24,241 bases of DNA from a virus: positions 1 through 24,241 of the IMG/VR virus record IMGVR_UViG_3300029259_000423. One strand, given 5' to 3'. The notes below the pieces were generated by a model, which ran no database searches, was not told the origin of the DNA, and worked only from the letters and a program-made list of their open reading frames with translations. Made by a program: the position numbers and the translations under genes. Positions within the stretch are counted from its first letter, which is position 1; each line of letters begins with the position of its first letter. This document shows positions 2,946 to 24,241 of this stretch, one piece after another.

Positions 2946-3091
2946 ATGAACCACTAACCACATCACAACGTAACGAAGAGTTACTTAAAGTTATCTTGCA
3001 AGCAAGCAGAAGCCCAAAAGATTTAGACGTTGAAGACGTTATGAAACTAATATTCAAAGAACCTACGACCATTCATTTACATAAAAAATAA
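2942..3091 (+). CDS. Small hypothetical protein (49 aa)
   Basis: The ATG at 2942 overlaps the VWA gene's stop (ATGA), and the frame runs to TAA at 3089-3091, filling the space to the DNA polymerase gene, whose ATG is nine bases further on. The product is helical and mixed-charge (MNEPLTTSQRNEELLKVI at the start). The ATGA coupling and lack of other use of this space support a real gene. No family is recognised. Confidence 0.6.
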   Translation: MNEPLTTSQRNEELLKVILQASRSPKDLDVEDVMKLIFKEPTTIHLHKK

Positions 3092-3100
3092 GGCCAATTA

Positions 3101-5698: not shown

Positions 5699-5975
5699 AG
5701 CACTAACCTACGCAACTCACTTAAAGATTAGAGGAACAACGTACACAATTGTACATACGCTACTGGATCATTACCTGTGTGCTGATTGCGTTGATGAGAA
5801 TGATGTAACGTTAGTTAGTAATAGAGGAGTAGTTCGTAAACTAAATTTATCTGATCCAATAGAATTTGATTTAGTTGCTAAATCAACGTTTCAAATACTC
5901 GTTAATTTAGAAGATGAATTAAGTACTTATCAAGTTATCCGTGAATTGGGAGTAACAACTACGAATGCAGATTAA
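5673..5975 (+). CDS. Hypothetical 100-aa protein coupled to the polymerase gene
   Basis: It starts 26 bases inside the polymerase gene and overlaps the nuclease gene by 11 bases, so it belongs to the same translation chain. The protein has alternating hydrophobic residues suggesting a small beta barrel or alpha/beta fold, with a cysteine pair at CADC (residues 36-39) but no full zinc site. I recognise no family. Its place between polymerase and nuclease suggests a replication accessory role, which is inference only. Confidence 0.6.
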   Translation: MKTLNQIFEALTYATHLKIRGTTYTIVHTLLDHYLCADCVDENDVTLVSNRGVVRKLNLSDPIEFDLVAKSTFQILVNLEDELSTYQVIRELGVTTTNAD

Positions 5976-6972: not shown

Positions 6973-7145
6973 CAACACAATTAGAAAGCAAACTAGTATT
7001 ACCTTTAAACAGCAGTGGCATGTACACCTATGTCAAAACTAAAAGTGGTTGTGAAGTGTGGTTTCCCATTAACCATAACAATTCAAAATACATAGAAGCA
7101 AAGAAAAACGAAGTAAAAGCTTTTATTGGTTTAGACATTAGTTAG
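6969..7145 (+). CDS. Small hypothetical protein (58 aa)
   Basis: The ATG at 6969 overlaps the nuclease stop (ATGA), and the frame ends with TAG at 7143-7145. The product is basic with probable beta strands (LVLPLNSSGMYTYVKT) and has no recognised domain. It is too short for most gene callers, but the coupling, and the otherwise unexplained 200-base gap between two large replication genes, support it. Confidence 0.6.
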   Translation: MTTQLESKLVLPLNSSGMYTYVKTKSGCEVWFPINHNNSKYIEAKKNEVKAFIGLDIS

Positions 7146-7178
7146 CCCAAAATGCTAATAAAATAACTTGAGTATATT

Positions 7179-9338: not shown

Positions 9339-9372
9339 ATTAGAAGTAGAAAAATTAACCAAAGGAAATTAA

Positions 9373-10143
9373 ATGTCAAATACACAAATATCTTCAAAAC
9401 CTGATAACAAGCGTATCGTGCTTATTGCTGGTGGGCCATCAATGGGGAAAACCCATTCATTGCACCAGATGGCAAATGATCCAGGCGTAGCTTATCTGAA
9501 CACAGATCTAAAAGATTTACCGTTTAGAATACCTACTGATGGAACAGGTATGAAACATTGTAATGTTGATGATGCAATGATAGCGCCTGATGCAGTAGCA
9601 AAATTAGAAGCAGATATGCCAGAAATCCATACTGTAGTAGTAGACACTATCACGTTTTTGATGAATCAATACCGTAACCAGTATGTACTTAATGCTCCAG
9701 ACACACGCGCTGCATGGCAACAGTACGCTATGTACTACCACAACTTAATGCATCAAATTAAGTCAGGTACGAAAAATTACATTATCTTAGCGCACACCAC
9801 AACGGCCTATAACGAGACAGAATTAGTAAACGAAACCACTGTACCCATTCAAGGATCGGTTGGTAAGGTAGGCGTAGAAGCTGATTACAACATCATTATA
9901 ACGCCTCGTAAGATAACGTTAACCGCGTTGCAACCATACTTAGATGGTAACGATTTGTTGACAGTGACAGACCGTGAGCAAAAATTAGGATTTAAGTATG
10001 TATTTCAAACTGGCTTAACAGCAGAAACGTTAGGTGAAAAAATAAGATCACCAATGGATTTGTGGGCCGAAAACGAGCTTTATATTAATAATGATATTCA
10101 GCTAATTACTAACCGACTAAGTGAGTACTACAACGAGTCATAG
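9373..10143 (+). CDS. Sak4/RecA-like recombination ATPase
   Basis: A 256-aa P-loop ATPase of the phage Sak4 (RecA-core, AAA_24) type. Walker A is GGPSMGKTHS (20-29), Walker B VVVDT (D91) and the sensor strand YIILAHTT (136-143), followed by the loop QGSVGKVGVEADYN (160-173). Sak4 proteins consist of the RecA core alone and promote single-strand annealing or strand exchange with the phage SSB, whose probable gene follows directly. The start is supported by AAAGGA eight bases upstream. The 3' end lies in an 18-bp tandem duplication that spans the stop codon. Confidence 0.85.
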   Translation: MSNTQISSKPDNKRIVLIAGGPSMGKTHSLHQMANDPGVAYLNTDLKDLPFRIPTDGTGMKHCNVDDAMIAPDAVAKLEADMPEIHTVVVDTITFLMNQYRNQYVLNAPDTRAAWQQYAMYYHNLMHQIKSGTKNYIILAHTTTAYNETELVNETTVPIQGSVGKVGVEADYNIIITPRKITLTALQPYLDGNDLLTVTDREQKLGFKYVFQTGLTAETLGEKIRSPMDLWAENELYINNDIQLITNRLSEYYNES

Positions 10144-10159
10144 TACTACAACTAGTCAT
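10124..10159 (+). repeat. 18-bp tandem duplication across the Sak4 stop codon
   Basis: AGTACTACAACGAGTCAT (10124-10141) is followed directly by AGTACTACAACTAGTCAT (10142-10159), with 17 of 18 bases identical. The stop TAG spans the junction (10141-10143), so only the first copy encodes the protein end (EYYNES). The second copy sits in the leader of the SSB gene. It looks like a recent duplication. Confidence 0.9.
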
Positions 10160-10191
10160 ATAACACTTTTTATAACAACAGGATAAAAATT

Positions 10192-10911
10192 ATGAGTTAC
10201 AACGCATCACACTTAGGGCTTATCGACACCATTAAAGATGAAGGTGATCGTCCACATGTCAGTGGTTTATTTGAATCAGATGTTTATGGATTCACTATTG
10301 ACCAAGCATTTATCGGAACTTCAGCTGGTGGAGCTGACTTTATGGATCTTAAACTGGTTACAGCACAAGGTCGTGTATTTGCCAAAAAAATATACTTTAC
10401 TTCAGGTACTGCAAAAGGACGCAAAAATACTTATCCAGTAAAAGTACAGGGCGTACCTACAGGTGAACTTAAATACCAACCAGGCTTTGTAGTAATTAAT
10501 GACTTAGTTAACTTAGTAACAGGTCATGGTTTGGATAAAATTCAAACTGTAGACAAGCTTGTAAAGTGTTGGGATAACGATGCTAAGAAAGAAATTCCAA
10601 TGTCTCGACCCGTTTGTGTTGAGTTAAACGGACAACAAGTTGCTTTGGCACTGCAAGAAAACATTATCATGAAGCAAGTTAACAAAGATGGTGTATGGCA
10701 AGATAGTGAAGAGACTAAAAAAGAAAACGACATTGTTAAAGCGTTTAACGAAGCAGGTCAAACCTTAGTTGAGTTTAATGCTAACGCAGAACCTTCATGG
10801 ATTGACGGATGGCTTACAAAGAACAAAGGTAAAGTTACTGATAAAACAGGTAACAAAGCCAAAGTAAGCACTGATGGTACTGGCGTTAAAAAAGTTGCTG
10901 CTTGGACGTAA
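10192..10911 (+). CDS. ssb: Probable phage single-stranded DNA-binding protein
   Basis: A 239-aa protein with beta-rich N-terminal two thirds, including FMDLKLV and the FTSGTAKGRKNTYPVKVQG stretch (69-87), a pattern I know from phage SSBs encoded next to Sak4 ATPases. The C-terminal region is lysine-rich and low in hydrophobics (NKGKVTDKTGNKAKV, 211-225). An acidic tail of the E. coli SSB kind is not seen. It lies directly after sak4, with AGGA nine bases before the ATG, and before a resolvase, giving a compact recombination cassette. In N4, the SSB (gp45) also activates late transcription; whether that holds here is unknown. The call rests on pattern and position. Confidence 0.7.
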   Translation: MSYNASHLGLIDTIKDEGDRPHVSGLFESDVYGFTIDQAFIGTSAGGADFMDLKLVTAQGRVFAKKIYFTSGTAKGRKNTYPVKVQGVPTGELKYQPGFVVINDLVNLVTGHGLDKIQTVDKLVKCWDNDAKKEIPMSRPVCVELNGQQVALALQENIIMKQVNKDGVWQDSEETKKENDIVKAFNEAGQTLVEFNANAEPSWIDGWLTKNKGKVTDKTGNKAKVSTDGTGVKKVAAWT

Positions 10912-11418
10912 GTGCAAGTTTTTATTGGCATCGACCCAGGGGCAAGTGGTTACATTTGCATACTTGCCCCTGACTTAGATCGAGCAGAGTTCATTTCTAA
11001 TAAAGAGCAACCACATATAATTCATCAACAGCTCAAGGAAGTAAAAGAAGATTACTCCCTTTGTAAAGTGATGATAGAAGATGTTCATAGTTTACCAACC
11101 GTAAGCGCCAAATCAAATTTTAGTTTTGGGTTTAACCTTGGTTTATTACACGGCATTATTGGTTGTAGCAGTATTGGATTAGACCTTGTACAACCTAAAG
11201 TATGGCAAAAAGCCATTGGAATTAAACCACCTGTAAAGGTTAAAGATGCACCTAAAGTTAAAGCTGCAGTTAGAACACGGCAATTAAAACAAGAAGTTGC
11301 TAGTATATGCCAACGGCTTTATCCAAAAATTATAGTCCATGGCCCAAAAGGTGGACTGCAAGACGGTAAATCAGATGCACTAATGATTGCACATTATGCT
11401 TCTTTGAAATACCGCTAA
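10912..11418 (+). CDS. RuvC-like Holliday junction resolvase
   Basis: A 168-aa RNase H-fold nuclease with GIDPGASG (D8), MIEDVHS (E56) and the C-terminal GGLQDGKSDALMIAHYA (D151, D155), the four-acid layout of RuvC-family resolvases. It would resolve branched replication and recombination intermediates before packaging, fitting its place after Sak4 and SSB. The start is GTG, directly abutting the SSB stop (TAAGTG), with no separate Shine-Dalgarno, so it depends on coupling; the next in-frame ATG would delete the catalytic D8. Confidence 0.87.
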   Translation: MQVFIGIDPGASGYICILAPDLDRAEFISNKEQPHIIHQQLKEVKEDYSLCKVMIEDVHSLPTVSAKSNFSFGFNLGLLHGIIGCSSIGLDLVQPKVWQKAIGIKPPVKVKDAPKVKAAVRTRQLKQEVASICQRLYPKIIVHGPKGGLQDGKSDALMIAHYASLKYR

Positions 11419-11448
11419 CAATTTATTTATTATAGGAACTAAATTTAC

Positions 11449-11931
11449 ATGAAAATTATACTCGACAAGCAAGACTTACTTAAAGCAGTTAACGTTTACC
11501 TAAAAGATCAGGGTATCGACACATCTAATACCGCTATTGTTGGCGCAGATGATAGCTTTGAACTTCAAATTGAGATTCAAAAAGAAGTTAATAAAACTGC
11601 AGAAAAGAAAACTAAAGTTAATGATGGAGTAAAGCCTACAACTAAAAAGCGTAGCTTCAAAACATCAGAAAACGTGAAGACAGAAAGCGTGACTCCGATG
11701 GTATTCGGTAAACCAGAACAAAGTATAACGCCTGTACCTGACGAGCCTGTACCTGACGATCTTGATGACGTTGCTACGCATGCTGATTTAGATTCTTTAG
11801 GTTTACTAGAGGTTGCCGAAGCTGACGAAAGTGATGCCGAAGCTACAGCAAAAATTATGGCGCAAATGGAAGGTAAAGCTAGTGATCCACAAATTAATCG
11901 TTTGTTCGGTCAACGTAAATTTACGCAGTAA
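11449..11931 (+). CDS. Unknown acidic 160-aa protein with a PVPD repeat
   Basis: It has a folded-looking N-terminus (KIILDKQDLLKAVNVYL), a basic stretch (KKTKV and TTKKRSF) and then an acidic, probably disordered region rich in Asp/Glu (about 90-135), ending in a conserved-looking KASDPQINRLFGQRKF tail. Residues 95-104 are a duplicated PVPD(E/D). No enzyme motif is visible. TATAGGA upstream supports the ATG at 11449. Acidic disordered proteins beside SSB and recombination genes often mediate protein contacts, but that role is guesswork here. Confidence 0.55.
   Translation: MKIILDKQDLLKAVNVYLKDQGIDTSNTAIVGADDSFELQIEIQKEVNKTAEKKTKVNDGVKPTTKKRSFKTSENVKTESVTPMVFGKPEQSITPVPDEPVPDDLDDVATHADLDSLGLLEVAEADESDAEATAKIMAQMEGKASDPQINRLFGQRKFTQ
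11731..11760 (+). repeat. 15-bp in-frame tandem repeat
   Basis: CCTGTACCTGACGAG (11731-11745) is followed by CCTGTACCTGACGAT (11746-11760), with 14 of 15 bases identical. It is in frame and encodes PVPDE-PVPDD in the acidic linker of the host gene. Confidence 0.85.
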
Positions 11932-11937
11932 ACTAAA

Positions 11938-12129
11938 ATGATTGATACCTTAAAGACCATAGCAGTAACAAGTGCGATAGCTATAACGGTATTATTCATT
12001 ATGGGTGTTGCCTATATCCTGATCCCAATAACTATCGCTTGCGTAGTTATTGGGGTTATTTTTGCAATAGTAAAATATGAAGTTGACGTTAAAAGCCGCA
12101 GAAAGAAAAACCCCAAAAACCCAATTTAG
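11938..12129 (+). CDS. Small two-helix membrane protein (63 aa)
   Basis: Two adjoining hydrophobic stretches (about residues 7-27 and 29-46), rich in Ile/Val/Ala, are followed by a basic tail (KSRRKKNPKN). This suggests an inner-membrane protein with the C-terminus in the cytoplasm. It starts six bases after the upstream stop without a clear Shine-Dalgarno. Holin-like, superinfection-exclusion or membrane-anchor roles are all possible; no lysis genes are nearby to support the first. The function is unknown. Confidence 0.6.
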   Translation: MIDTLKTIAVTSAIAITVLFIMGVAYILIPITIACVVIGVIFAIVKYEVDVKSRRKKNPKNPI

Positions 12130-12138
12130 GTAATCATT

Positions 12139-13044
12139 ATGACACCCACAGTAAACAGCTATTTTAGTGGCGCTGGTTTAATGGATATTGGGTTACTTAA
12201 AGCTGGTATAGAGATTAAACAAGCGTTTGAGATTGATAAAGATGCTTGCAAGACATACCAACATAATTTAGGTAATCACATGACGCAGTGTGATATTTCT
12301 AACCAAATGGTTACAAAGCAAGCTGAAGCAGACGGAATGGTGTTTACCTACCCCTGCACTAAATATAGCACCATTGCTAATATCCATAACACACGCACAG
12401 GTGATGAGCTATTTCTTCATGCTTTACGGCATTTAGCGATAGCTCGGCCTGAATTTTATGTAGTAGAAAACGTCCCAGGTATGCGAGCGTTTCCAATAGT
12501 CATGGAAGCAATGACCCATATGCCTGATTATTACGTAACAGTCTATTGCCCTATCAAGTCAGAAACATGGCTTCCACAAAGACGTAATAGATTAATTATT
12601 ATAGCAACTAAAAGATACTTTCAAGTAAGGCCACCTACAGCCACAAAACGAGTTAAATTATCTGACATTGTTGAAGAATATCCAGAAGTCACTAGACCAT
12701 CCGCAATTACGGCGAGAATGAACGGTTTGTATCGTGACTTGCCGATTATTTCTGATCCATCAAAAGATGATATAGCTCCAACGTGCGTAGCGCATTATGC
12801 AAAAGATAAGTCTACTAGATTAGTTGTTGATAAACGTTTTCCACTAGGGGTACGACCTTATTCAGTTCGTGAATTTGCAAGACTGCAAGGTGTACCTGAC
12901 TCATTTGAGTTTCCAGTATCTGACACCGCTGCCTATAAACAAATAGGTAATGGTGTATCAGTACCTGTTGGTGAGTGGATCGGAAAAGAGATGACCCGAT
13001 ATATGAACGCTAAACAGATTATGGATAAAAATCTAATCAATTAA
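12139..13044 (+). CDS. C5 cytosine DNA methyltransferase (orphan)
   Basis: A 301-aa Dcm-type enzyme with the expected motif order: I FSGAGLMD (9-16), IV YPCTKYS with catalytic C73, VI ENV (110-112), VIII QRRNR (147-151), a short target-recognition region (about 155-235), RExxRLQ (244-250) and X NGVSVPV (271-277). It methylates carbon 5 of cytosine in a sequence that cannot be read from the protein. Motif IV has Y-P-C rather than the usual P-P-C. No restriction endonuclease gene is adjacent, so it most likely protects phage DNA from host restriction, or marks it. The ATG at 12139 follows the membrane-protein stop by nine bases. Confidence 0.92.
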   Translation: MTPTVNSYFSGAGLMDIGLLKAGIEIKQAFEIDKDACKTYQHNLGNHMTQCDISNQMVTKQAEADGMVFTYPCTKYSTIANIHNTRTGDELFLHALRHLAIARPEFYVVENVPGMRAFPIVMEAMTHMPDYYVTVYCPIKSETWLPQRRNRLIIIATKRYFQVRPPTATKRVKLSDIVEEYPEVTRPSAITARMNGLYRDLPIISDPSKDDIAPTCVAHYAKDKSTRLVVDKRFPLGVRPYSVREFARLQGVPDSFEFPVSDTAAYKQIGNGVSVPVGEWIGKEMTRYMNAKQIMDKNLIN

Positions 13045-13063
13045 AAATTAAGAGATAAACAAA

Positions 13064-13489
13064 ATGATTTTAAAATTTCCTTATATTCTAGGCGGTAATA
13101 TTACGCTTACTGTAGAAGCCGAATTCAAAAATGTTGTTTTCAATCCACTAGATCCTGAACAAGAAATTGGCGAAACTTCTGTTGAAATAACCCAAGTTTA
13201 CGATGCTAGTGGTCTGACTGTAGAAACACAAGATATTAGCATTGGTAATCAAACGCTAGATAATTTGCTAGAAATGGAAGCTTGGGTTTACAAAGATCAA
13301 GAGAAAAAAGTGATTTTAAATAGAGTGAAAATTATTGATCTTGCTGTAAATGAAAAATTAAGTTATTGGGATATATCAGAAATGCTTTTTAGTGAGATGG
13401 AAGAAATGACTGACACTGAATTGCTTAATAACTTAGAACAAAATCACCCAGATTTAATGTCAGAAGTAGAAATGGGAGTACAAACATAA
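13064..13489 (+). CDS. Unknown 141-aa protein
   Basis: The N-terminal half is beta-strand-like (ILKFPYILGGNITLTVEAEF) and the C-terminal half is helical and acidic (MLFSEMEEMTDTELLNNLEQ). No family, membrane segment or active-site motif is recognised. Its TAA stop overlaps the ATG of the next gene (TAATG at 13487-13491), so the two are co-translated. Confidence 0.55.
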   Translation: MILKFPYILGGNITLTVEAEFKNVVFNPLDPEQEIGETSVEITQVYDASGLTVETQDISIGNQTLDNLLEMEAWVYKDQEKKVILNRVKIIDLAVNEKLSYWDISEMLFSEMEEMTDTELLNNLEQNHPDLMSEVEMGVQT

Positions 13490-14088
13490 TGGGTTACACG
13501 CATTACTGGAAACAAACAAGAGACTTTACTGACAAAGAATGGGAAGAAATTAGAGAAATGTTTAGCGTACTTAAAGAATATTCTGATGTAAAAATTGATG
13601 TAATAAAAAATGATAATGACGGGATTCAGTTTAATGGTAGCTGGTACGATCAGCATGAAGACTTTTATATAGCTAGAAAAGTTTTAACACATGAATACCA
13701 TTCGTATAACCAATTTTGTAAAACCCAACAAAAACCTTATGATGAAATCGTAGTTGCATTACTGTGGTACTTGAATAAATTTAGCAACCTAGAAGTAACC
13801 TCAGACGGTTGTATTTTTGACCAAACTTCTCCCGATGCTCTTGATGCATTAAATCTAATGGCTAAAATCAGTAAATATAACAAATACCCTTCTAATAAAT
13901 ATTCTAATACAATTTTACCTCTAACAAACTTTAACACAGACCAAGCTATGGCTGTGGTATGGCAAGCCTTACACGGCTTTAGAGAAGACTCAATACCTGC
14001 AAATCAGTCTATCTATGACGAGCAATGGGATGAAATTTGTACTGCTATGGCGTGGATTGGTGACGAACTTGAGTATCAAATAGATTAA
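13489..14088 (+). CDS. MGYTHYW-family conserved protein of unknown function
   Basis: The N-terminus MGYTHYWKQ, followed by DKEWEEI, belongs to a conserved protein family I recall from many phages and bacteria. The DGIQFNGS and CKTQQKPYDEIVVALL segments also fit it. The C-terminal 60 residues (from about 139) are an extra helical part with WQALHGF and DEQWDEICTAMAWIG. No catalytic motif or membrane segment is visible. It is the last gene of the rightward block, 20 bases before the hairpin at the convergent junction. The function is unknown. Confidence 0.65.
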   Translation: MGYTHYWKQTRDFTDKEWEEIREMFSVLKEYSDVKIDVIKNDNDGIQFNGSWYDQHEDFYIARKVLTHEYHSYNQFCKTQQKPYDEIVVALLWYLNKFSNLEVTSDGCIFDQTSPDALDALNLMAKISKYNKYPSNKYSNTILPLTNFNTDQAMAVVWQALHGFREDSIPANQSIYDEQWDEICTAMAWIGDELEYQID

Positions 14089-14107
14089 CCAATAGCTAAC
14101 AAAATAA

Positions 14108-14133
14108 ATGTGTAGCTAAGATAAGCTACACAT
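14108..14133. terminator. Putative bidirectional terminator between converging gene blocks
   Basis: ATGTGTAGCT (14108-14117) and AGCTACACAT (14124-14133) are a perfect 10-bp inverted repeat with a 6-base loop, placed between the two converging stop codons (14088 and 14168). On the - strand the hairpin is followed by TTATTTTGTT, a reasonable U-rich tail. On the + strand the following bases are less T-rich until 14148-14152 (CTTTTT). It therefore fits best as the end of the leftward operon and as a weak terminator for the rightward one. Confidence 0.65.
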
Positions 14134-14167
14134 ATTAAAGCTAAACCTTTTTCCCAACGCAACATTA

Positions 14168-15346
14168 TTAAGCAACCTCTAGCTGTCCAAAGCTGAGTTT
14201 GTGACGTTGTACCTCGCCCCATTTAGGTGAATAAATTACGGCTGACATTGATCGTGCTGATCCATAACCCGATTGGGCATGCCATTCATCTGAGCATGCA
14301 AGCGTATTCCAACTTTCAAATAACATTGCTCCCCCTACTTCCGAAGCTTGCTTATGGTGTATGTGACCCATATGACAATATCTATGGACTGTCTCACCCC
14401 AAGCTTTTGGTTGTGTCCGAGTGTAATATTCGTATAACCTTTGAAGCTTAATTCCTTTATCACCGTGATGACTTGCTATAAAAACATTATAATAAATGTA
14501 TAGTTGAAACTTTGACGTATTATCTAACACAACCACCCGTGGTTCAGACTCATAAAAAGCTTTTAGCATAACGTTAATAACCATAGAAACATCACTGTCA
14601 TGGTTGCCTCTAGTATTCATTAAGATCACTTCATCGTTGTACTCAAGCATAATATCAACTGATTGACGATAGACTCTTACCGCAGCTTCTACGCTGTCTA
14701 CGTAATGCCCTGACGTATCAAGTGGCGTACCAGCAGCTGTTATTCCAGGCGTATTTGCGTGTAAGAAATCACCCACATTAAGCAGCATAATTTTAGTGCC
14801 TCGCCCACAAGATCTAACCAACTTTTCAATAGCGTCTAATGTCGCACTCTCAGCAATATTTAAATCCCACTCCCCTGCTCCATAATCTTTTTGGACTAGC
14901 ATACCAAGATGCCCATCTCCTATCATAATACACGCTAATCGTTCTTCTACGGCACTGTCAGCAATCACTCTAGGCTTTGGTACATAAGGGCTTAGATCAG
15001 CTGTTAAACCATCAGCAAACGTTTGTAACGCTAACTCTTGATCTACCTTCTTTAAGTCTGTTTTAACCCATTGGCGAATAGGTATACCGAGTTCATCATA
15101 AAACGTACTGACACCTTTAACTAAGTGCGTGTCAGGTGCTGCATGTGTCATATCATGGTCAGGCGACCAGCCTTGTCGTGAAGCACGATCTCGTAAACAT
15201 TTAAGTCCACGTTCTAAACTTCGTTTTGATACATTAAGTGCAATAGCAGCTTTGCTTTGACTACCGTATTGAATGACTGCATCAATATAAACTTCTTGGC
15301 GTTTAGTCGCAAACGGCTTTAATTTTAATAATTTATCGTGATCCAT
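14168..15346 (-). CDS. Calcineurin-like metallophosphoesterase with N-terminal helix-turn-helix
   Basis: A 392-aa protein. Residues 14-56 form a helix-turn-helix (QSKAAIALNVSKRSLERGL). The phosphoesterase domain (about 137-385) has all the metal motifs: GDGHLG (D144, H146), GDFLH (D193), RGNHD (N248, H249), SHHGDKG (H293/H294) and GHIHHK (H328, H330). These bind two metals and hydrolyse phosphoester bonds in nucleotides, nucleic acid or phosphoprotein. I recall the same fused architecture in other tailed phages, where its substrate is unknown. It is the last gene of the leftward block, 19 bases after the giant virion gene, so it is probably expressed late. The helix-turn-helix suggests it acts on DNA. 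Confidence 0.85.
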   Translation of the reverse strand: MDHDKLLKLKPFATKRQEVYIDAVIQYGSQSKAAIALNVSKRSLERGLKCLRDRASRQGWSPDHDMTHAAPDTHLVKGVSTFYDELGIPIRQWVKTDLKKVDQELALQTFADGLTADLSPYVPKPRVIADSAVEERLACIMIGDGHLGMLVQKDYGAGEWDLNIAESATLDAIEKLVRSCGRGTKIMLLNVGDFLHANTPGITAAGTPLDTSGHYVDSVEAAVRVYRQSVDIMLEYNDEVILMNTRGNHDSDVSMVINVMLKAFYESEPRVVVLDNTSKFQLYIYYNVFIASHHGDKGIKLQRLYEYYTRTQPKAWGETVHRYCHMGHIHHKQASEVGGAMLFESWNTLACSDEWHAQSGYGSARSMSAVIYSPKWGEVQRHKLSFGQLEVA

Positions 15347-15365
15347 TATTACTAATCTCTAATGC

Positions 15366-18300
15366 TTAAATAGTCGTAAGTGATGACGCAGCTGCAAGTA
15401 AAGGTACGTCTGTTATTGTGTCTACGTGATCCAAAGGCGTTTTAAGTCTGCCGAATGTTCCTGGTATAGTTAGTATTCCGTCATCAATAGAGACTTGTTC
15501 ACCTACAGCTTTTTCTAATACATGGAGGCTTAATTGTGATGCAGGTCGATTTTTAAACAGTGAAAATATAACTTTTTGAATTCTAAAATAGAATTTTGAA
15601 AACGGAAATAAACCAACGTCATTGATATATTGCATTTCAGCCGAAGTTGGTAAGTCGTAGTTAACAAATGTTTGAACGATTTCATTCATAACATCTTGTA
15701 CGTAAGATGCTGTTGCGTCTTTATTTAGTTTAGGCATGTTACCCATTCGATGGCGATACAAAGAATACCGAGCTATAAAGTCACTGACTTGCGTTACCTT
15801 GAGTAGCACTTTGTATGGTGTTGTATCTTTCGTAAGATAAAGATGTTTATAAATTGGTTTAACGTAATCAGGTAGGTATTTATCGGCTAACTCACCTGCT
15901 TTATTACTCAGCTTGGCTTTAGATGAATAAATATCTTCTTCAAAGTTAATGTCTTCTATTATGCTTCCAAACACACCTTCATCAATTAATGGCCCTACTG
16001 GGTTAACTTGTAGTTCAGTGTTTAGTCGCGCTACTTTTGCTTCTAATTTAGCGCGTTTGTTTTTACTTAAAGTAAGATTTATCTTTAACTCACTGACTGC
16101 TATATCACGTTCCAATAACTCTTTTTGATATGCATCTAATGCCTCTAAAGCTTCTTTTTGGTAAATTCCAATTTGTTTAATGGGTATACCTTTAACAAAC
16201 TGCACATAGTTATTACTCATAAAGTTAGGTATCAATATCACGCCTGTTCTAACCACAACTAAGTCTTTAACCATATCAATTACTTCAGTCCAAAGTTTAC
16301 CAATATCAGTATTAGGTGCGGCTGGAAAGAACGAGTTTCGTAGTACATAATCAATGCTGCTATTCACACCGCGAACTGCTGTGCCAACTACATTTTTCGC
16401 ATCTTTTGCTCGTAATTTTCTAAACCCAAACATCAGATTTAAATACTCTTTACGTATTTTTACAGGCTTACCTTTCCCCCAAATAGTTTCTAGTTCACCT
16501 TTAAGTTCATCAGGCATGAGCGCGTACATTTCAGCAATTTCTTTATCTGCGCTATTCTCCACTACATCAACAAATTTACTTGGGTCAGATAGGTAGTTGT
16601 CGTCGTAATCTTTTTTAGCCAATTGCATTGCTTCTAAGTTAATTTGAGTTGAGTTAACTTTGTCTTCAATGCTGGCGTACATACGGCCTATTGCTGCGTC
16701 ATAAGCATTGTTACGTTCTAAGGTGTCTTCTTTAAACTCAGAAGTCATCATGTAACGATAGCTTACAGTTTCACCTTTATCATTAACCAAAGGTATTAAC
16801 GTAGACGATTTGAATTTAGTTGATTTACCTTCAAACTGTTTAGCGATTTCTTTATCCATATCTTCATGAATTTGCTTAACGGACTGCTTCGCGTCCTTAT
16901 AAGCAATGTCTAAATTTGTTGCATTGTGCATATCTTCAATAGAGAAACCTTGGCTTTGTTTTGCTGTCAATGACATGATTGATTTAACCCAGCTAGCAGT
17001 ATGCTTGTTGGTGTTAACAAACATAAATCTTTGACCTGGAGTTGGGTCTAGTTTATCTTTAGCTAAAGGGTTTGACATCATCACGTAACCTTCACGTTCA
17101 AGCTCTAGTTTTAAATTAACAATTTCAGATTTACCTGTGTCTTCGTTAATACGAGTACTTTGTAATAAACTTACTTTGACATCTATATCAGAGTTAAATA
17201 CTTCAGCTACATACCCTTTCCTCGTTTGCATTTTGTTCCCATTAAATAGTCGCTCTAACGAGTCTTTTTTATGGTTAACTTGTAAATCTAATAAAGTAGT
17301 AATCCCATTGGTTTTAGGGTTAACCGAATGTTCATGTTCTACCACTTCTGCTGCTGCAAGCTTTGTTTCAGCGGTTAACAGAAATAATGATTGAAGCGTT
17401 GCTAATTCATCAATTAACTTTTCAGCGCGAGTAATATCACCTTGTTGTTTCTGATCTTTACGGTTAGCTAATGTTGCAATAATATGTGCATTTCGCATCT
17501 GCCCCAATGTAGCGTCTTCACCTGTCGTGTTTAAATTACCTAATCCCGTACCTTGTTTAATGTAGTAATCTGAATTGTTACCAAACTCTGCACTGTTTAA
17601 TTCTGCAATCACTTCGTCTTTTTTCTCTTTTAAAAAATCACTATCCTTTAAAAGTTGAATGAGAGATTCTACGGTGTATTTATCTTTTTGTGCTGTGTCT
17701 AACAACACAGACAGGTCTGATTCTAAAAATACTTTATACAAAGCTTCAGATTGTAATTTAGTCGGTTTACGATCCATAGCTCTGACTAGCTGCTCTTGTA
17801 TCGTTGCTGATACTTGTGTACGTAACTGATCTACAATCTTTTTTGATTTTCTAAGTAATACGTGAAAACGCCAATTTTCTTCAGTTAAACCAGCAACTTC
17901 ACGTACTAATTTAGTCAACATACTACGTTCAGTAATACCTAAGTTACGAGAGATCTGACCAACCATAGTGCTGACGTTAGCCCGTATATTGTCATCTGCC
18001 AATGCTGTTATATTGGATAACAGGTATAACGCTCGTCTGGGTACGTTAAACTTACTAGGAGGGTTAGCTTCGGTATATTTGCGATACTTTGTCAGTGGCT
18101 CTAACACAACTTTCTTTATTGCTGCTAATGCATAGGGGTTAGCCACATGAACTAAATCAAACGCTTTAAAAATGTTAATACGTTTCTTTTCATGGGTATT
18201 GGTTATGTCATTAACTACTTGCCTTAATGCTTTATCCAAAGATAATCCAGAAGTTTTATCCAGCCTATCTAAAAGCAGATTGACTACCCTATCAAACCAA

Positions 18301-21300
18301 GCTGAAATTCGCTCCCATAAACTACTATCTTCAATTGTTACATCATCACGCACCTTAATTGATTCTAACTTCTTAGAAAAAGTATTATGAGTTAACCCAG
18401 AAGCAACGAATTCGTGTAAATAATCATTTGTGGCTTTACCGTTTAACCCTTTGTTATTATTAAAAATATAATTGTAATTTTCTTTGGCAAGTCGTATTTC
18501 AGAATCTGTAGCTGATGCAACATCAGTAGCTAAAAAATCTTCCCAAGTAGTATTTTTTTGAGCTTGCTTATAAAGCTTTTTAAGTACTTTACGAGCCGCA
18601 AAGTCTGTATCAATAGCAAACTGTGTCACTGCATGAACAAGCTCATGTACGTACACGTTTTGAGCTGTCATGCCTGATCTGTTGCGAATCATGTTAGTAG
18701 ATGCTTGAATTGTGATATCAAGCTTGCCATCCGTAAATGTTCGTAACGCTCCAAAGGTTTCTGTATCTGTCTCCCCTACTTTTATATCAATAGCTTCTTG
18801 TACTTGAACTACGTTATCTAACACTTCTTTTAATTTAGCTTTATGACTAGGGGTATCTACTGCATCTGAACCCATGTGCTCTAAATGGTTAAAAATTGTT
18901 TGGACGGTACTGGCTGTAATAGTGCCTTCAAAAGTAGAATGGAAATTGTCAAAATCAATAGTACGGTCAGACGAACCTTTTTTATTGTTACGTGACTTTT
19001 GTTTGTTTTGTTTTTTAGACTTTTCAGTGTATGTAACGTTAACTTTTTCTTTTGGTTTTTTACGAGGTAATATTACGAAACCATCAGCATCTAATTTTGG
19101 ACTTTCATTCTCGTTGAACACCCGTTCATTTAAAGGTTTAGGTTGATCTGGGCCTTTATCTGTATTGCTAAAAGTAAGAGCATCTTCAAAAAGTAAATCA
19201 ATGGCATCAGCCTCACTCAACGTTGCGGCTGTAGCAGACTCATGTACGTGTACCGTAGGTTCAGCGCCAGCATAGTTGTTAACAGCAATGTCTGGGTTAT
19301 CTTCAAGAAAACTAATTCGATTTTGTTGAACTGTTTTTAGTAAAAGCTTGTAGTTGCCAATAAACAACGCAGCGTTTTCTTTCACCCGTTGTCCGTTACC
19401 ATTTTTTGCAAGTATTTCACGTTTAAAAATAGTCTCGTTCATAAGCGTAACTGCCTCTTTCCACAAAGTCTGATCAGGATCTTTGTTTAATTCAACAGCA
19501 ATTCGTTGAAAGCTATTTAATGTCTCTGCCATAATACTATGGCTCATAGAGACATCTAAAAAAGCTTTGTTAATGGTTTGTGCAACTGCATTAGCTTCGT
19601 CAAGTCGTGAAATAGTGGCATCAAAATAACCAATAGTGGTGTACGAAGCTTCAGTAATTTCTAATATAGCAGCGTCTATGTTGTGTATTATGTTGACCAT
19701 GCCGCCAACCCCTGGCCCTTCGTATACTTGTTCTTCACCAAATGACGTATTACTTTTACTATCAGTACCTGTTAGTGGCTCACTAAATTGAGTTTGTACT
19801 TTGTATCTATTATCTAACTTACCATTAACCACACCGTTATTACGTTTGATCTTACTTTTAAGTAAGGTAATACCTTCATCAAGACTTTTAGCCATTGGGC
19901 CTTTTATAATTGGCATGAACGCTCGTATTGATTCAAACACCTCGTTTGTTTCTTCAATAGATATTGTTCTGTCGCCAATTTCTTCTTGTTTAGCTTTCAG
20001 CATTTGTTTAAATTTAACACTAAACATTACAAACAGAGCTTGCATTGCTTTGTTAACATTGTAGTTAAACTCTGTTACACCACTTAACTGTTCATTTAAA
20101 GCTTTGGTTAATGCCTTGCCATGTGTTTGGTCAACAGTCGCCTCAAAAGCGAGTGTTTGCCCTTTAGATAATTTAAATGTTATTGGGTCTATATCTTCTT
20201 TGTTCTCAATAGTGGTGTTCGTTAATAACTCTAATAACTTTAATTGTTTTAAGGCTGGTTGCTTGCCTTTAGTTTTGGTAGCGAAATTGGTATACCATTC
20301 TTTTAATACTATTTTACGAAATTCAGCTTTAGCGGTTTCAAGCGCTGAGCCATAGCTTGTCTGCATTAAAGGGTCTTTACTGTAAGTTCGCATAACTTCG
20401 CTAATTTCTTTAGATACGAAATCTCCCAAAATAGATTGAACGCCTGCTACTTTTACTTTCAGCACTTTTAGTTCGGCTTTATCTCTTTCGTTTTCGACTT
20501 TCTTTTCTTCTGGGTCTAACAGGCTAAACGCTTTCTCTTCTTTTGCGCTTCGGCTTTGACGTTTAGGTTTAATGTATTCGGCCCACTTAATTGTGAGTTG
20601 TTCATACAAATCATAATTACCTAGTTGGCTGTGCCATTCACCGTATGACTTATTAACACCATCGGTAAAGACACCCACGGCAGGCAATTTATCTGGATCT
20701 GTTAATGCCTGTACAAGCCCAAGAGCAATGCCACTTGTTTTTGCATCATGTTCAATTGTGAGCGTAGTTTCAAAAGATTCAGCAGCTCGATAATCTGCTA
20801 AAGCTAACAACCCCTCAAACCCACCTAAACCATTCTTACCAATAGCTTTTAAAATAATGTCTTCTTCAGGGCGAGACAGGTTATCTTTTTGGATTAGTTT
20901 AACTGCGTCAGCTGTGTCTATTTTGATTTGAGCAATTTGAGCGAGACTTATCTTGGGGGCTTGTCCACTAATGTTTACTCCAAAAAGTTCGCCAATAGCC
21001 AGATCAAAATTCAGTCGAGTAGCTGGATCGTCAACCTTTACGGTCATAGTGTGATGCTTTAACCCTATAAAAGTCCGTATCATTTTTTGAGTTACAGGGT
21101 TAATAGAGTTGTTAGCAATAAACATACGCGCACTCTTAGAAAGAAAGTGCTTCATATAGAACTTATCATTAGGGGTCGAAAGCCCTTCTCTAAACTTTTT
21201 AAACACAGCGAGTGTGCGAAGCTTTGATTCGTTAATTGCTTTAAAGCTACGTTGTTGAGTAATGTGTTTTTTATCCACATCTACAATACCAATAACCGCA

Positions 21301-22739
21301 TTAATAAACTTTTCAGATGTACTAAAGAATTTTGCAGCAACTTTCTCTTTAACTCCCCATGCGTCATTTTGCTTGTTTTGCATAACGGTTCGCGTTGATT
21401 GAGGTATTGATTGAGAAGTACGTTTATATGTTTTAGGTGTTTTATTAGAGGGTTTACTTGAGGGGTACGTTTTTCCGCTTTCGATATCAAATAATTCATC
21501 GAGTGCGTTAGTATCTCGTCTGTCATCACGTAAAGCCATAACACCCTTTAGCATTTCGGTTTCAGAACTAACCGCTACAAATAACGTATCTTGACTTGTG
21601 GGTGTCTTCTCACTCGATAAAGTTTCTATCTCGTAGTTTTGTTGTTTTGGAAACTCTGAAGCTTTCACAGGCGTTTGGATCAATATCTTTTCATCAATCA
21701 TAAAGCCAACAGCTAATTGACCTAACCCGACTTGGAGCCGTGTCATAAACGCACCATCAACATTTTTTAGCTTTTCAAACCCAAGATTAGCCGTTATTGC
21801 TTTACCTATTTGTAGGTTAACGACAGCGCGAACTGTACCTACCTTTTGAAATGTAGCCTGATACTCTTGATCAATTAAGTTTTTATCTTGTTTACCAATA
21901 ATTTTATTAATAGTTGTATCATCATTAAACATTGAATCAATCCCATCAATACTAAGCCATTGATACATACTGACTGCCACTGCATCTAAAACAAGTTGAT
22001 TGATTGTTACCTTTGGATTACCTACATCAGAAGGGTTGCTGCCAAGCACATCTTGCGATAGATATTCCAACATTCCATAAAACTTAACTTGTTCACCGTT
22101 CTTTACGAACGGTTCGCCACGAAGTTTAATCCGTCTTGTTTTGTCTTTAGCCATGAAATCAAGAAGTGGTGGCTTACCTGGCGTACCATTGATTCTGGCA
22201 TCGAGCCTTAAACTCAGCTTTAAGATACTATTAAAGGCTGCTAAATCTGCTTCATTGGCAGTTGTGAGCCACGCTTCGTAAGCAGCAGACTCAACAAATT
22301 GTGATAACGTTTGACCCTTATCCATCAATGCATTCAGTTTGTTACTAGTCGCACTAACAAAGTCAGATAACCTTGAGCCACCTTCTCCCCCAAAAGTTGT
22401 GCCAACTGATACTGTATTACTTAGTATCGCTGCAGCCGCATTACGTTTTGAAATAATTGGTATTGGAGATATGCTTTCTGTTACTGTTTTGTCTGTGGCT
22501 TTAAGTTGGTATTTAGCAGGTACTGTAAGTTCTTCATCTTGCTTATTGGTATAGATGGTTTGCAATACGTTGTTACGGCTAAGTAGCGTTTCGGTTAACA
22601 TGGTATTCAACAGCACTGCTTTACCAGCACTGTTAACTGTTGGATCAGACGAATTAAACTCAATGGTTACTGCTTTAGCAAAACCAGAATTTGGATCAAT
22701 GTTGTTACTTTTTAAAATATCTTTTATTGAACAAGTCAT
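15366..22739 (-). CDS. Giant virion protein: N4-like single-subunit RNA polymerase fused to a zinc-peptidase-like domain
   Basis: A 2457-aa protein. Residues 200-1150 carry the single-subunit RNA polymerase motifs in order: SKSAR (534-538, the T/DxxGR element with A for G) followed by NP, motif A TDG (D693), motif B RxxxKxxxMxxxYGS (R784, K788, M792, Y796, G797) and motif C HNIDA (H1019, D1022). T7 equivalents are R425, D537, R627/K631/M635/Y639 and D812; the A-to-B spacing is 91 here and 90 in T7. A very basic linker (about 1223-1258) precedes a zincin-like segment with HELVH (1365-1369) and possible third ligand E1443 in HEFVAS. Residues 1550-2457 are helical and unassigned, probably for encapsidation or ejection. 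N4 gp50 is about 3500 aa, so this form is shorter. The start is ATG with AGGA eight bases upstream, overlapping the previous stop as ATGA. I infer a polymerase injected with the DNA for early transcription. Confidence 0.77.
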   Translation of the reverse strand: MTCSIKDILKSNNIDPNSGFAKAVTIEFNSSDPTVNSAGKAVLLNTMLTETLLSRNNVLQTIYTNKQDEELTVPAKYQLKATDKTVTESISPIPIISKRNAAAAILSNTVSVGTTFGGEGGSRLSDFVSATSNKLNALMDKGQTLSQFVESAAYEAWLTTANEADLAAFNSILKLSLRLDARINGTPGKPPLLDFMAKDKTRRIKLRGEPFVKNGEQVKFYGMLEYLSQDVLGSNPSDVGNPKVTINQLVLDAVAVSMYQWLSIDGIDSMFNDDTTINKIIGKQDKNLIDQEYQATFQKVGTVRAVVNLQIGKAITANLGFEKLKNVDGAFMTRLQVGLGQLAVGFMIDEKILIQTPVKASEFPKQQNYEIETLSSEKTPTSQDTLFVAVSSETEMLKGVMALRDDRRDTNALDELFDIESGKTYPSSKPSNKTPKTYKRTSQSIPQSTRTVMQNKQNDAWGVKEKVAAKFFSTSEKFINAVIGIVDVDKKHITQQRSFKAINESKLRTLAVFKKFREGLSTPNDKFYMKHFLSKSARMFIANNSINPVTQKMIRTFIGLKHHTMTVKVDDPATRLNFDLAIGELFGVNISGQAPKISLAQIAQIKIDTADAVKLIQKDNLSRPEEDIILKAIGKNGLGGFEGLLALADYRAAESFETTLTIEHDAKTSGIALGLVQALTDPDKLPAVGVFTDGVNKSYGEWHSQLGNYDLYEQLTIKWAEYIKPKRQSRSAKEEKAFSLLDPEEKKVENERDKAELKVLKVKVAGVQSILGDFVSKEISEVMRTYSKDPLMQTSYGSALETAKAEFRKIVLKEWYTNFATKTKGKQPALKQLKLLELLTNTTIENKEDIDPITFKLSKGQTLAFEATVDQTHGKALTKALNEQLSGVTEFNYNVNKAMQALFVMFSVKFKQMLKAKQEEIGDRTISIEETNEVFESIRAFMPIIKGPMAKSLDEGITLLKSKIKRNNGVVNGKLDNRYKVQTQFSEPLTGTDSKSNTSFGEEQVYEGPGVGGMVNIIHNIDAAILEITEASYTTIGYFDATISRLDEANAVAQTINKAFLDVSMSHSIMAETLNSFQRIAVELNKDPDQTLWKEAVTLMNETIFKREILAKNGNGQRVKENAALFIGNYKLLLKTVQQNRISFLEDNPDIAVNNYAGAEPTVHVHESATAATLSEADAIDLLFEDALTFSNTDKGPDQPKPLNERVFNENESPKLDADGFVILPRKKPKEKVNVTYTEKSKKQNKQKSRNNKKGSSDRTIDFDNFHSTFEGTITASTVQTIFNHLEHMGSDAVDTPSHKAKLKEVLDNVVQVQEAIDIKVGETDTETFGALRTFTDGKLDITIQASTNMIRNRSGMTAQNVYVHELVHAVTQFAIDTDFAARKVLKKLYKQAQKNTTWEDFLATDVASATDSEIRLAKENYNYIFNNNKGLNGKATNDYLHEFVASGLTHNTFSKKLESIKVRDDVTIEDSSLWERISAWFDRVVNLLLDRLDKTSGLSLDKALRQVVNDITNTHEKKRINIFKAFDLVHVANPYALAAIKKVVLEPLTKYRKYTEANPPSKFNVPRRALYLLSNITALADDNIRANVSTMVGQISRNLGITERSMLTKLVREVAGLTEENWRFHVLLRKSKKIVDQLRTQVSATIQEQLVRAMDRKPTKLQSEALYKVFLESDLSVLLDTAQKDKYTVESLIQLLKDSDFLKEKKDEVIAELNSAEFGNNSDYYIKQGTGLGNLNTTGEDATLGQMRNAHIIATLANRKDQKQQGDITRAEKLIDELATLQSLFLLTAETKLAAAEVVEHEHSVNPKTNGITTLLDLQVNHKKDSLERLFNGNKMQTRKGYVAEVFNSDIDVKVSLLQSTRINEDTGKSEIVNLKLELEREGYVMMSNPLAKDKLDPTPGQRFMFVNTNKHTASWVKSIMSLTAKQSQGFSIEDMHNATNLDIAYKDAKQSVKQIHEDMDKEIAKQFEGKSTKFKSSTLIPLVNDKGETVSYRYMMTSEFKEDTLERNNAYDAAIGRMYASIEDKVNSTQINLEAMQLAKKDYDDNYLSDPSKFVDVVENSADKEIAEMYALMPDELKGELETIWGKGKPVKIRKEYLNLMFGFRKLRAKDAKNVVGTAVRGVNSSIDYVLRNSFFPAAPNTDIGKLWTEVIDMVKDLVVVRTGVILIPNFMSNNYVQFVKGIPIKQIGIYQKEALEALDAYQKELLERDIAVSELKINLTLSKNKRAKLEAKVARLNTELQVNPVGPLIDEGVFGSIIEDINFEEDIYSSKAKLSNKAGELADKYLPDYVKPIYKHLYLTKDTTPYKVLLKVTQVSDFIARYSLYRHRMGNMPKLNKDATASYVQDVMNEIVQTFVNYDLPTSAEMQYINDVGLFPFSKFYFRIQKVIFSLFKNRPASQLSLHVLEKAVGEQVSIDDGILTIPGTFGRLKTPLDHVDTITDVPLLAAASSLTTI

Positions 22740-23017
22740 TCTATTAATCCTGTATTAATCATGGAGACTACTAACGCAATTACTTCTTCATCTTCTTGAT
22801 ACAGTTGTTTGTAGTTAATTGCTTCAAGAGTAGGTGACTTTAATTTAAAATGATCTTGTCGTTGTGCAGAAGGTATTGATGCGGTTACTGGTGTTACTGG
22901 TGTTACTGGTGCTTGTATCTGAGGCGTTACAACAGTACATATAACGCCGAGCGTAGCTAGCGCTACTGCTCGTGCTGAGCAATGCACACCAAGGCTTGCT
23001 AGGGATAAAGCACTCAT
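22736..23017 (-). CDS. Small 93-aa late protein with hydrophobic N-terminus
   Basis: It is joined by ATGA overlaps to the gene before (stop 23014-23016) and to the giant gene after it (start 22739), which fixes the frame over a competing ORF at 22845-23093. Residues 15-32 (ARAVALATLGVICTVVTP) are hydrophobic, then comes a threonine-proline repeat (PVTPVTPVT) and a conserved-looking acidic end (QLYQEDEEVIALVVSMINTGLI). It may be a small virion or membrane-associated protein. The lack of Lys/Arg at the extreme N-terminus makes a standard signal peptide uncertain. The function is unknown. Confidence 0.65.
   Translation of the reverse strand: MSALSLASLGVHCSARAVALATLGVICTVVTPQIQAPVTPVTPVTASIPSAQRQDHFKLKSPTLEAINYKQLYQEDEEVIALVVSMINTGLIE
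22884..22910 (-). repeat. 9-bp tandem repeat, three copies
   Basis: GTTACTGGT occurs three times head to tail on the + strand (22884-22892, 22893-22901, 22902-22910). On the coding (-) strand it is in frame and encodes the Thr-Pro-Val repeat of the 93-aa protein. Confidence 0.9.
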
Positions 23018-23583
23018 ACTTGACGAGTTTGTATAACATTGTTACCGACACTGGTAGCGGTAATATTAATACCTGTGGCTTCAATACCACCATCAGCTTT
23101 GTTGGTTAATGGTTTAGTGGTGTTTAACCCTAACCGTGTATGTACCTCATCAGTTCGTGTTTCTATGCCAGATAACAATGCTGTTTCTGCAATGGTCAAA
23201 GCTGGTACAGCGGTTGGTACTGAGATCACTACTGCGCGTGTAGATACCTCTAATCTTAAAAAAGCAAAATACCCTGTACGTTGCACAAACAAAGCTGAGT
23301 CTGGGTCTGTTGGAAATAGATTACCAGACAGAATAATCTCCCCATCTTGTTCAGGCATTCTAACTCGCCAACCTAAATCGTTACGAACAAAAAAGTAAGG
23401 CGCTATGGTTTGATTGCTACCAACAGGTTCACCACCTGACACCGAGAACGCTGGTAAGTATTTAGCATTGTCTGAAAACTTAACAAAACCTTTCCACTCT
23501 GAGTAAATATATCCTGCGGTTACTGCATTTACTTCATCCAAGTTTATAAATTTGTTAACACCGTCAAACGTTATTCTACCCAT
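23014..23583 (-). CDS. Conserved phage tail/baseplate-like structural protein
   Basis: A 189-aa protein of a type I recognise from many tailed phages. It opens with ITFDGVNKFINL, then YIYSEWKGFVKFSDNAKYLPAF (48-ish residues in, split by strands), YFFVRNDLGWRVR and a GNLF segment, and ends with the LGLNTTKPL and ATGI elements. It is beta-rich in the first 120 residues with a short helix (about 127-150). Such proteins are encoded among tail tip, baseplate or fibre-adaptor genes; the precise virion position is not known to me. A good Shine-Dalgarno (AGGAGTT, 23590-23596 on the - strand) precedes the ATG, while the upstream gene's stop overlaps by eight bases. Confidence 0.7.
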   Translation of the reverse strand: MGRITFDGVNKFINLDEVNAVTAGYIYSEWKGFVKFSDNAKYLPAFSVSGGEPVGSNQTIAPYFFVRNDLGWRVRMPEQDGEIILSGNLFPTDPDSALFVQRTGYFAFLRLEVSTRAVVISVPTAVPALTIAETALLSGIETRTDEVHTRLGLNTTKPLTNKADGGIEATGINITATSVGNNVIQTRQV

Positions 23584-24241
23584 TTTGATAACTCCTATCG
23601 AAGCGTTGTTGGATAGGCAGCTCTACATTATTAGTTGTGTTAACACCTGCTACTCGGAGATACTCATAAGCAATACTATGTACAACAACATCAACACTGT
23701 TTACATTTACTGCAAAAGCTGTAAATGTTTCTTCAGAATCTTCTATGCCATCAACAGGTATTGTTGTGCCAGCTTCAAATATTCTTACTTCACTGTTCTG
23801 TTGTAAGCCTGTGAGTGTCAGTGTGCGCGGTGCTGATACGACTGTTATTGATGGGTCTATTGATGCATATTGTATTGTTGTGTTACTTAGTTGGACTGTT
23901 ATGTTTCCACCTGACGTATTAGATATACTTGACATTGAGCTATCAGTGAAGCTATAGCTCCCTGCTGCTGCAAAATCTATATTGCCATTAACCGTTAGAC
24001 CAGAGTAATCGGTAACGCCTGCGGTTGAAATATTTAATCCACTATTAAAAGTAGCATTGTTTAAAGTAGCGCCTGAACTAATCACTAGATAACCATCAGC
24101 TACAGTAAATGTGCCAGAAGCATTAACAGAGCTACCCATAGTGAAGTCGCCCATGCCACTGAAAGATCCAGAAAGGTTAGCAACAACAGCTGGATAATTT
24201 TGTGAGAAATCCCAAGGCGCTGGTGTACCCCATACGTAAGA
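23576..24241 (-). CDS. Beta-rich fibre- or spike-like virion protein, C-terminal part (cut by window edge)
   Basis: The frame is open to the window edge, so the start lies beyond 24241 and the ATG at 24154 is internal. At least 221 residues are visible. About 130 residues are low-complexity, rich in Ser, Thr, Gly and Asn with short alternating hydrophobic strands (GATLNNATFNSGLNIS, LTVNGNIDFAAAG), typical of a beta-helix or stacked beta fold in tail fibres and spikes. This is followed by an Ig-like region (RTLTLTGLQQNSEVRIFEAG) and a helical end (QQRFDRSYQNG). Its neighbours are tail-type genes. A host-contact role is likely by analogy, but receptor and catalytic sites are not visible. Confidence 0.65.
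   Translation of the reverse strand, partial: SYVWGTPAPWDFSQNYPAVVANLSGSFSGMGDFTMGSSVNASGTFTVADGYLVISSGATLNNATFNSGLNISTAGVTDYSGLTVNGNIDFAAAGSYSFTDSSMSSISNTSGGNITVQLSNTTIQYASIDPSITVVSAPRTLTLTGLQQNSEVRIFEAGTTIPVDGIEDSEETFTAFAVNVNSVDVVVHSIAYEYLRVAGVNTTNNVELPIQQRFDRSYQNG
23590..23596 (-). promoter_or_regulatory. Shine-Dalgarno of the 189-aa structural gene
   Basis: AGGAGTT on the - strand, six bases before the ATG (23581-23583). It lies within the 3' end of the upstream fibre-like gene and supports the chosen start. Confidence 0.7.

Follow-up and report, generated by a model that had tools for sequence, protein, structure and literature searches.

The 24,241-base IMG/VR virus record IMGVR_UViG_3300029259_000423 (hereafter the window) carries a 2457-aa ORF that an initial annotation, made from the sequence alone, took to hide a single-subunit RNA polymerase (RNAP) of the kind that phage N4 packages and injects. 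This raises the questions of whether the protein is such a virion RNA polymerase (vRNAP), and of why it is ~1000 residues shorter than that of N4. The window held an N4-type replication block on the + strand with genes for a DUF2201 protein, DNA polymerase A, an exonuclease, a primase (phrog_2135, 1.5e-243), a Sak4-like ATPase, and SSB. Convergent to this block on the - strand were a phrog_704 gene (DNA-repair-exonuclease-like), the 2457-aa ORF, and three small or fibre-like ORFs that ran off the right end of the window (Table 1). The gene order around gp39-gp50 in N4 is the same, and the N4 vRNAP gene likewise occupies a late position convergent with the DNA polymerase, primase, Sak4-like, and SSB genes. 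The C-terminus of the 93-aa ORF was common to the small gene directly upstream of the vRNAP in relatives L171, L100, L114, and L031, with the form ED(E/Q)E(L/V/I)...G. The 189-aa and incomplete 221-aa ORFs occupied the place of the relatives' fibre-like genes and matched no PHROG family. The early region probably lies outside the 24-kb contig. A DNA methyltransferase gene (12139-13044, +; phrog_116, 1.3e-55) sat between the replication block and the vRNAP. An 8-kb contig, L008 (IMGVR_UViG_3300029264_000303), encoded a primase protein 100% identical to that of the window and ended before the vRNAP; its phage is near-identical to the window phage, or the same phage.

Table 1 Features of the vRNAP locus, in window coordinates
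Feature	Position	Strand	Basis
vRNAP gene, filed as split-type, 2457 aa; RNAP domain and C-terminal domain (CTD) without N-terminal domain (NTD)	15366..22739	-	phrog_2206, E=4.3e-298
Cys3, only Cys in 2457 residues, junction end	22731..22733	-	
RNA polymerase domain, residues 203-1149	19293..22133	-	phrog_2206, 5.3e-99; 2PO4, 8.4e-86; Foldseek 3C3L, 1.3e-30
R538, T/DxxGR motif (N4 R424)	21126..21128	-	invariant in 37 sequences
D665, catalytic Asp of motif A (N4 D559, T7 D537)	20745..20747	-	alignments
D693, motif A residue of the initial annotation, not conserved	20661..20663	-	alignments
Motif B, R784-S798	20346..20390	-	alignments
D1022, motif C residue of the initial annotation, in helix before motif C	19674..19676	-	alignments and model
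D1040, catalytic Asp of motif C (N4 D951)	19620..19622	-	alignments
C-terminal domain, residues 1269-2426	15462..18935	-	phrog_2206 positions 2257-3378
HELVH (HExxH, zincin-like), residues 1365-1369	18633..18647	-	
93-aa ORF overlapping the vRNAP start by 4 bases (ATGA)	22736..23017	-	
189-aa ORF and incomplete 221-aa beta-rich ORF, candidate fibre-like	23014..24241	-	position and sequence appearance

The 2457-aa protein is an N4-type (Schitoviridae) vRNAP made up of the RNAP domain and the C-terminal part. Searched whole against PHROG, it matched phrog_2206 'virion RNA polymerase' in two stretches, the best of which was the large CTD that is a feature of N4-type vRNAPs, and residues 1-1260 searched alone matched profile positions 995-1942, in both cases at E-values well past what chance would give. 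A 37-sequence profile of residues 1-1160 matched the N4 mini-vRNAP (2PO4) in the PDB, and AlphaFold2 on the same alignment returned a confident model (pLDDT 81, pTM 0.80) whose top PDB matches in Foldseek were the N4 mini-vRNAP/gp50 (3C3L, prob 1.00, TM 0.65-0.69), followed by mitochondrial and T7 RNA polymerases. The profile and structure comparison with N4 and T7 that the initial annotation had proposed thus gave the N4 mini-vRNAP as best match and confirmed a single-subunit T7/N4-type RNAP at residues ~203-1149. A tblastn search with the window protein hit 468 phage records, the best covered being Schitoviridae vRNAPs at 23-26% identity, and a scan of the genome collection found two vRNAPs, of which one, on an Alteromonas sp. 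contig, was fused and Cys-free and the other was partial. The expectation that the protein would fall below ordinary annotation thresholds held in part. PHROG found the vRNAP at once, but the Pfam search of the 2457-aa protein and the phmmer search of the single protein against the PDB gave no match, where the profile search did, and the filters of an N4-like survey, which removed vRNAPs <2500 aa or without ExDGxxxG (PMC10654107), would have dropped a 2457-aa protein with EHDAKTSG. The single-protein scan of IMG/VR likewise found no relatives; these were gathered with a 4-row C-terminal alignment. From an RNAP domain of N4/T7 type in an N4-like gene setting it is natural to infer that the protein is packaged and injected like that of N4. 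MPTase domains have been described in N4-like RNAPs (PMC5512222). The HExxH motif of the window protein sits further on than the place of the N4 C1 zincin, and the other HExxH motif of N4 (2228) and PG11 (2187), which is that C1 zincin in N4, has no counterpart in it.

We examined the active site in an alignment of N4 gp50 with six other vRNAPs and, separately, in one of 37 vRNAP domains, with N4 residues in mini-vRNAP numbering. Published N4 active-site residues (PMC4496689) include the catalytic R424, K670, Y678, D559, and D951 (PMC2784036), and all were matched in the window protein, by R538, K788, Y796, D665, and D1040, respectively. Residues R538, R555 (N4 R440), D665, R784 (N4 R666), K788, and D1040 were invariant in 37/37 domains, and K552 (N4 K437), E663 (N4 E557), and Y796 were kept in at least 90%. 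The intervals R538-D665-R784-D1040 were 127, 119, and 256 residues, compared with 135, 107, and 285 in N4, and motifs T/DxxGR, A, B, and C of the T7-like single-subunit superfamily were all present. HHalign to T7 RNAP, which at an overall probability of just 4% we treat as supporting only, placed R538 on R425, D665 on D537, R784 on R627, K788 on K631, M792 on M635, and Y796/G797/S798 on Y639/G640/S641. In motif A (residues 663-670; 20730-20753) the window clade had E-x-D-A-x-T-S-G, read EHDAKTSG in the window, where most vRNAPs have E-x-D-G-x-T-N-G.

The initial annotation had named R538, D693, R784-S798, and D1022 as the four motifs, and these residues do exist within 19600-21200 at its intervals of 155, 91, and 238. 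Its T/DxxGR arginine (R538) and its motif B (R784/K788/Y796) agreed with the N4 alignment, and the full T7 signature it read in motif B was the set aligned by HHalign, at the 4% probability given above. Conservation among relatives, which it had offered as a check, bore out R784 and K788 (both invariant) and went against D693, whose place as the motif A aspartate is taken by D665. D1022 (IHNID) was nearly invariant but lay 18 residues before the catalytic D1040, in an alignment column where N4 has Gly. In the AlphaFold2 model, D665 was located on a strand and D1040 was flanked by two strands, which is the arrangement of polymerase palms; D1022 was in a helix. The T7 sequence has the same H-x-x-D pattern at 784-787, which probably explains why D1022 was taken for motif C. 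The earlier finding correctly recognised a known enzyme family but assigned two residues wrongly; beyond this, the locus presents what is probably a split variant with an unusual, testable cysteine signature.

The missing length is that of the NTD. N4 gp50 consists of the NTD, which binds membrane, a linker (907-1006), the RNAP (1007-2101), and the CTD (2124-3500) (PMC12633501). The window protein started ~115 residues ahead of the equivalent of mini-vRNAP residue 1 (R538 vs R424), and the open frame continued for just 5 more codons upstream of the ATG; therefore, no NTD is fused in it. The NTD had no match in the 2457-aa protein or the 24-kb window, and the expected place of its gene lies past the contig end. 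The initial annotation was right that the protein falls ~1000 residues short of the N4 vRNAP; the reason, and the lone Cys3, had escaped it.

Several IMG/VR relatives had the same compact RNAP+CTD form. In L009, L010, and L015, the NTD was its own complete ORF of 836-845 aa two genes upstream (NTD profile, E 4e-19 to 4e-29), and L031 had a separate NTD ORF of 1331 aa (4e-28). Those of L114/L168 (1311 aa) and L100/L166 (at least 1413 aa) lay 5.2-5.7 kb upstream of the vRNAP with a large fibre-like gene between. These last two are sister lineages of the window (clade support 1.0; 0.995 with L097 and L171); the sequence of the closest relative, L171 (2525 aa; best segment 45% identical), stops short of the NTD place. 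The order in L098 was gp52-like, gp51-like, NTD, fibre-like gene, small gene, and RNAP+CTD, which is the gp52-gp51-gp50 order of N4 with gp50 cut and fibre-like genes inserted (the gp52-like gene gave a 96% profile match to N4 gp52; the gp51-like gene, with a profile match of 2%, was named by position and size). The vRNAP of L080/L123, L083/L144, L085, L086, L087, L088/L135, and L148 was encoded by three neighbouring genes for the NTD, RNAP, and CTD. Some of these triple-split loci came from contigs 100-118 kb long. The sequences demonstrate a separate NTD gene in the sister lineages, and these relatives point to a split in the window genome also. Because the window protein is not a ~3000-3500-aa chain with a fused NTD and its sisters have a separate gene, it is filed as a split variant and not as a standard vRNAP. 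A group with the vRNAP made as separate Cys-ended proteins is apparently undescribed. At the other extreme of length, L126, L127, L131, L134, L136, L141, L147, and L155 had giant vRNAPs of ~4200-5000 aa, in which 1700-2600 residues preceded the RNAP domain; nearly all of these proteins were Cys-free.

N4-like vRNAPs are Cys-free, which has been read as a requirement for passage through the tail and periplasm (PMC3715699, PMC2784036, PMC3915230). Across 66 fused or long vRNAP ORFs there were 9 Cys in 238,208 residues, with none at all in 62/66; other ORFs of the same loci averaged 0.785% Cys. The window protein departs from this rule by its one Cys at residue 3, and agrees with the RNAP pieces of split vRNAPs, in which the sole N-terminal-side Cys lies <=9 residues from the N-end. 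Cysteine was found on both sides of 17/17 NTD/RNAP and 7/7 RNAP/CTD contig junctions (8/8 RNAP/CTD splits including a cultured phage, Alteromonas phage AD45-P1), 0-6 residues from the C-end and 3-9 from the N-end, with none elsewhere and none at the outer ends. Each cut end usually had one, and in one case two (the C-end of the L086 RNAP piece); start codons of L135 and L086 were picked at the nearest MxC or upstream start. NTD proteins ended in ...KECK, ...NKCK, ...EGCV, ...ECNV, ...GCALK, ...SKCSGV, ...MKDC, or ...PDGC, and RNAP pieces started with MTC, MAC, MSC, MKC, MGSKTC, or MALKDC. Where RNAP and CTD were also separate (L080, L083, L085-L088, L148), the RNAP piece had Cys at each end and the CTD piece had one at its start. 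In AD45-P1 (L165; NC_021532.1 85000-103910), the vRNAP locus (5624-17306, -) comprised a 2481-aa ORF with its sole Cys third from the end (...SKHCKQ) and a 1409-aa ORF with its sole Cys at residue 4 (MTIC). GenBank gives it as a single 'potential frameshift' feature without CDS, but two ORFs with terminal Cys suggest that the split is genuine.

The cysteine rule also had predictive value. In clades missed by the NTD profile, the RNAP piece was immediately preceded by an ORF whose single Cys was C-terminal, and ORFs picked in this way matched the NTD in profile-profile comparison at 94-98.6% probability over 99-208 columns (negative control 0.1%). Among 349 other ORF entries of at least 300 aa, 13 had a lone terminal Cys; 11/13 were NTD genes (contig duplicates included) and the other two both represented the same gene on one contig. 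The gp52-like gene of L098 is preceded by a ~745-aa virion gene (648-2885), with homologues in L157 and L158, that starts MPTC/MASC; this upstream gene is unrelated, and the lone Cys, Cys4, was found in one contig only. The vRNAP of cultured phage pSb-1, broken into three ORFs and used as a negative control, had no Cys. Breaks in L036, L056, L050, L018, L034, L113, L118, and pSb-1 were rejected as splits, being in-domain or in adjoining frames and having no junction Cys; they were set aside by position, as lack of Cys for the sole reason would be circular, except for the L056 break near a domain border, which we took for a frameshift after comparing it with fused L064. Separately, the CTD of the split L031 vRNAP was broken by a frameshift-like overlap without Cys (9599-9660), which sets it apart from the true split upstream of it. 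The idea that virion proteins in general start with 'MxC' was also rejected, as NTD starts, fused vRNAP starts, and CTD ends lack such a Cys. On the RNAP tree, about 7 changes between split and fused states were needed, against a mean of 15.6 and a minimum of 11 in shuffles, and given this shared ancestry the 25 junctions are not independent observations. AD45-P1 grouped with the L080 clade (0.949), so the RNAP/CTD cut may be one event, while NTD/RNAP cuts, or refusions, happened several times, e.g. L031 beside fused L040.

Cysteine is avoided chain-wide yet present on both sides of every true cut, and the simplest reading is that a disulfide replaces the lost peptide link. We consider it probable, and the best reading of the locus, that the vRNAP is split and that disulfides rejoin its pieces for ejection. 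Both pieces would be packaged in the capsid, and the C-terminal Cys of the NTD and the N-terminal Cys of the RNAP piece (here C3) would form an interchain disulfide to give one continuous thread, NTD-S-S-RNAP-CTD or, in the triple-split clade, NTD-S-S-RNAP-S-S-CTD. On ejection this thread would pass in order through the narrow tail and the periplasm, and the reducing cytoplasm could then free the polymerase for early gene transcription as in N4. We infer packaging of both pieces, bond formation, and bond timing from the sequence pattern. Since virions assemble in a reducing cytoplasm, the disulfide could arise only at a late stage, either after lysis or, during ejection, in the periplasm. N4 carries 4 +/- 1 vRNAP copies per virion (PMC12633501), and with several copies wrong Cys pairs could form unless the ends dock specifically; the NTD structure prediction (pLDDT 52) was too poor for docking. 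Joining through a split intein, recoding, or read-through was considered but found no support: in the window clade the pieces are separated by several genes, and the N-end Cys does not occupy position 1.

It is less likely, though a serious alternative, that the vRNAP is split and its terminal cysteines are not paired with each other, serving instead to bind metal or another virion protein, or to dock the individual pieces to the portal or ejectosome. Cys positions alone would be compatible with this, and the ends were predicted to be poorly ordered (pLDDT <50, residues 1-5). However, every cut has Cys on its two sides and outer ends never have one, a second Cys appears at the C-terminus of the RNAP piece in just those cases where the CTD is a separate protein too, and a general docking tag would not track the cuts in this way. 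We think it improbable that an ordinary N4 vRNAP has lost its NTD, or was truncated in assembly or sequencing, with a single Cys by chance. The 24-kb record has no NTD and frameshift pseudo-splits do exist (e.g. pSb-1, L036, L056), but the vRNAP start overlaps an upstream gene whose family is common to relatives, and the combination of compact form, Cys3, and separate NTD gene recurs in independent contigs. A standard N4-like vRNAP with nothing further, as the initial annotation had it, fits the strong RNAP domain and CTD matches and is the least credible of all, given an NTD absent from the chain and a junction-Cys pattern outside the published family description.

Returning to the disulfide-joined split vRNAP, we also judge it rather likely that the division of a Cys-free single-chain polymerase into two or three proteins has occurred repeatedly, the new ends gaining Cys each time, with the virion carrying a disulfide-stitched thread that would be ejected as one and released in the reducing cytoplasm. 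We found nothing on split vRNAPs with terminal Cys in the open-licence literature, where the Cys-free observation was found; mention elsewhere is possible. In the N4-like survey, the separated pSb-1 and AD45-P1 ORFs were treated as calling errors or read-through (PMC10654107), and its 2500-aa cut-off discards this split branch. The passage of a 3500-residue polymerase through a ~35 A tail channel has yet to be explained (PMC12633501). Natural splits with Cys only at the cut ends argue that continuity of the thread matters, which becomes testable in cultured phage AD45-P1, and they mark domain borders tolerant of cutting. The Cys rule additionally provides a sequence rule for locating missing NTD genes. 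If true, the covalent joining of a giant ejection protein from its pieces by end-to-end disulfides would give phages a new means of protein translocation.

Among known systems, T7 and mitochondrial RNA polymerases share the fold class and active-site motifs of the window RNAP, but with a TM-score on the query of ~0.35-0.4 against ~0.65 for N4. They are not virion proteins. The tail-tape-fused virion RNAP of Thermus phage P23-45 is an RNAP inside a giant virion protein, as here, and is set apart by its description as homologous to cellular RNAPs (PMC10770324). N4 gp50 has the RNAP domain with all catalytic residues, the CTD, and the almost Cys-free chain in common with the window protein. It differs in being a single 3500-aa chain with a fused NTD and no Cys, where the window has 2457 aa, no NTD in the chain, and Cys3; in its motif A (DGVTNG vs DAKTSG); and in having gp51/gp52 upstream of the vRNAP gene, where the window has fibre-like genes directly upstream. 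AD45-P1 has a split vRNAP with one Cys per cut end, like the window group, but is cut between RNAP and CTD with none before the RNAP domain. Closest are the vRNAPs of L171, L114/L168, and L100/L166, which, like the window protein, are compact RNAP+CTD chains that start M[TA]C, with Cys3 as the sole Cys and a similar small upstream gene; the separate NTD gene is visible in L114 and L100, whereas the window and L171 sequences end before its place.
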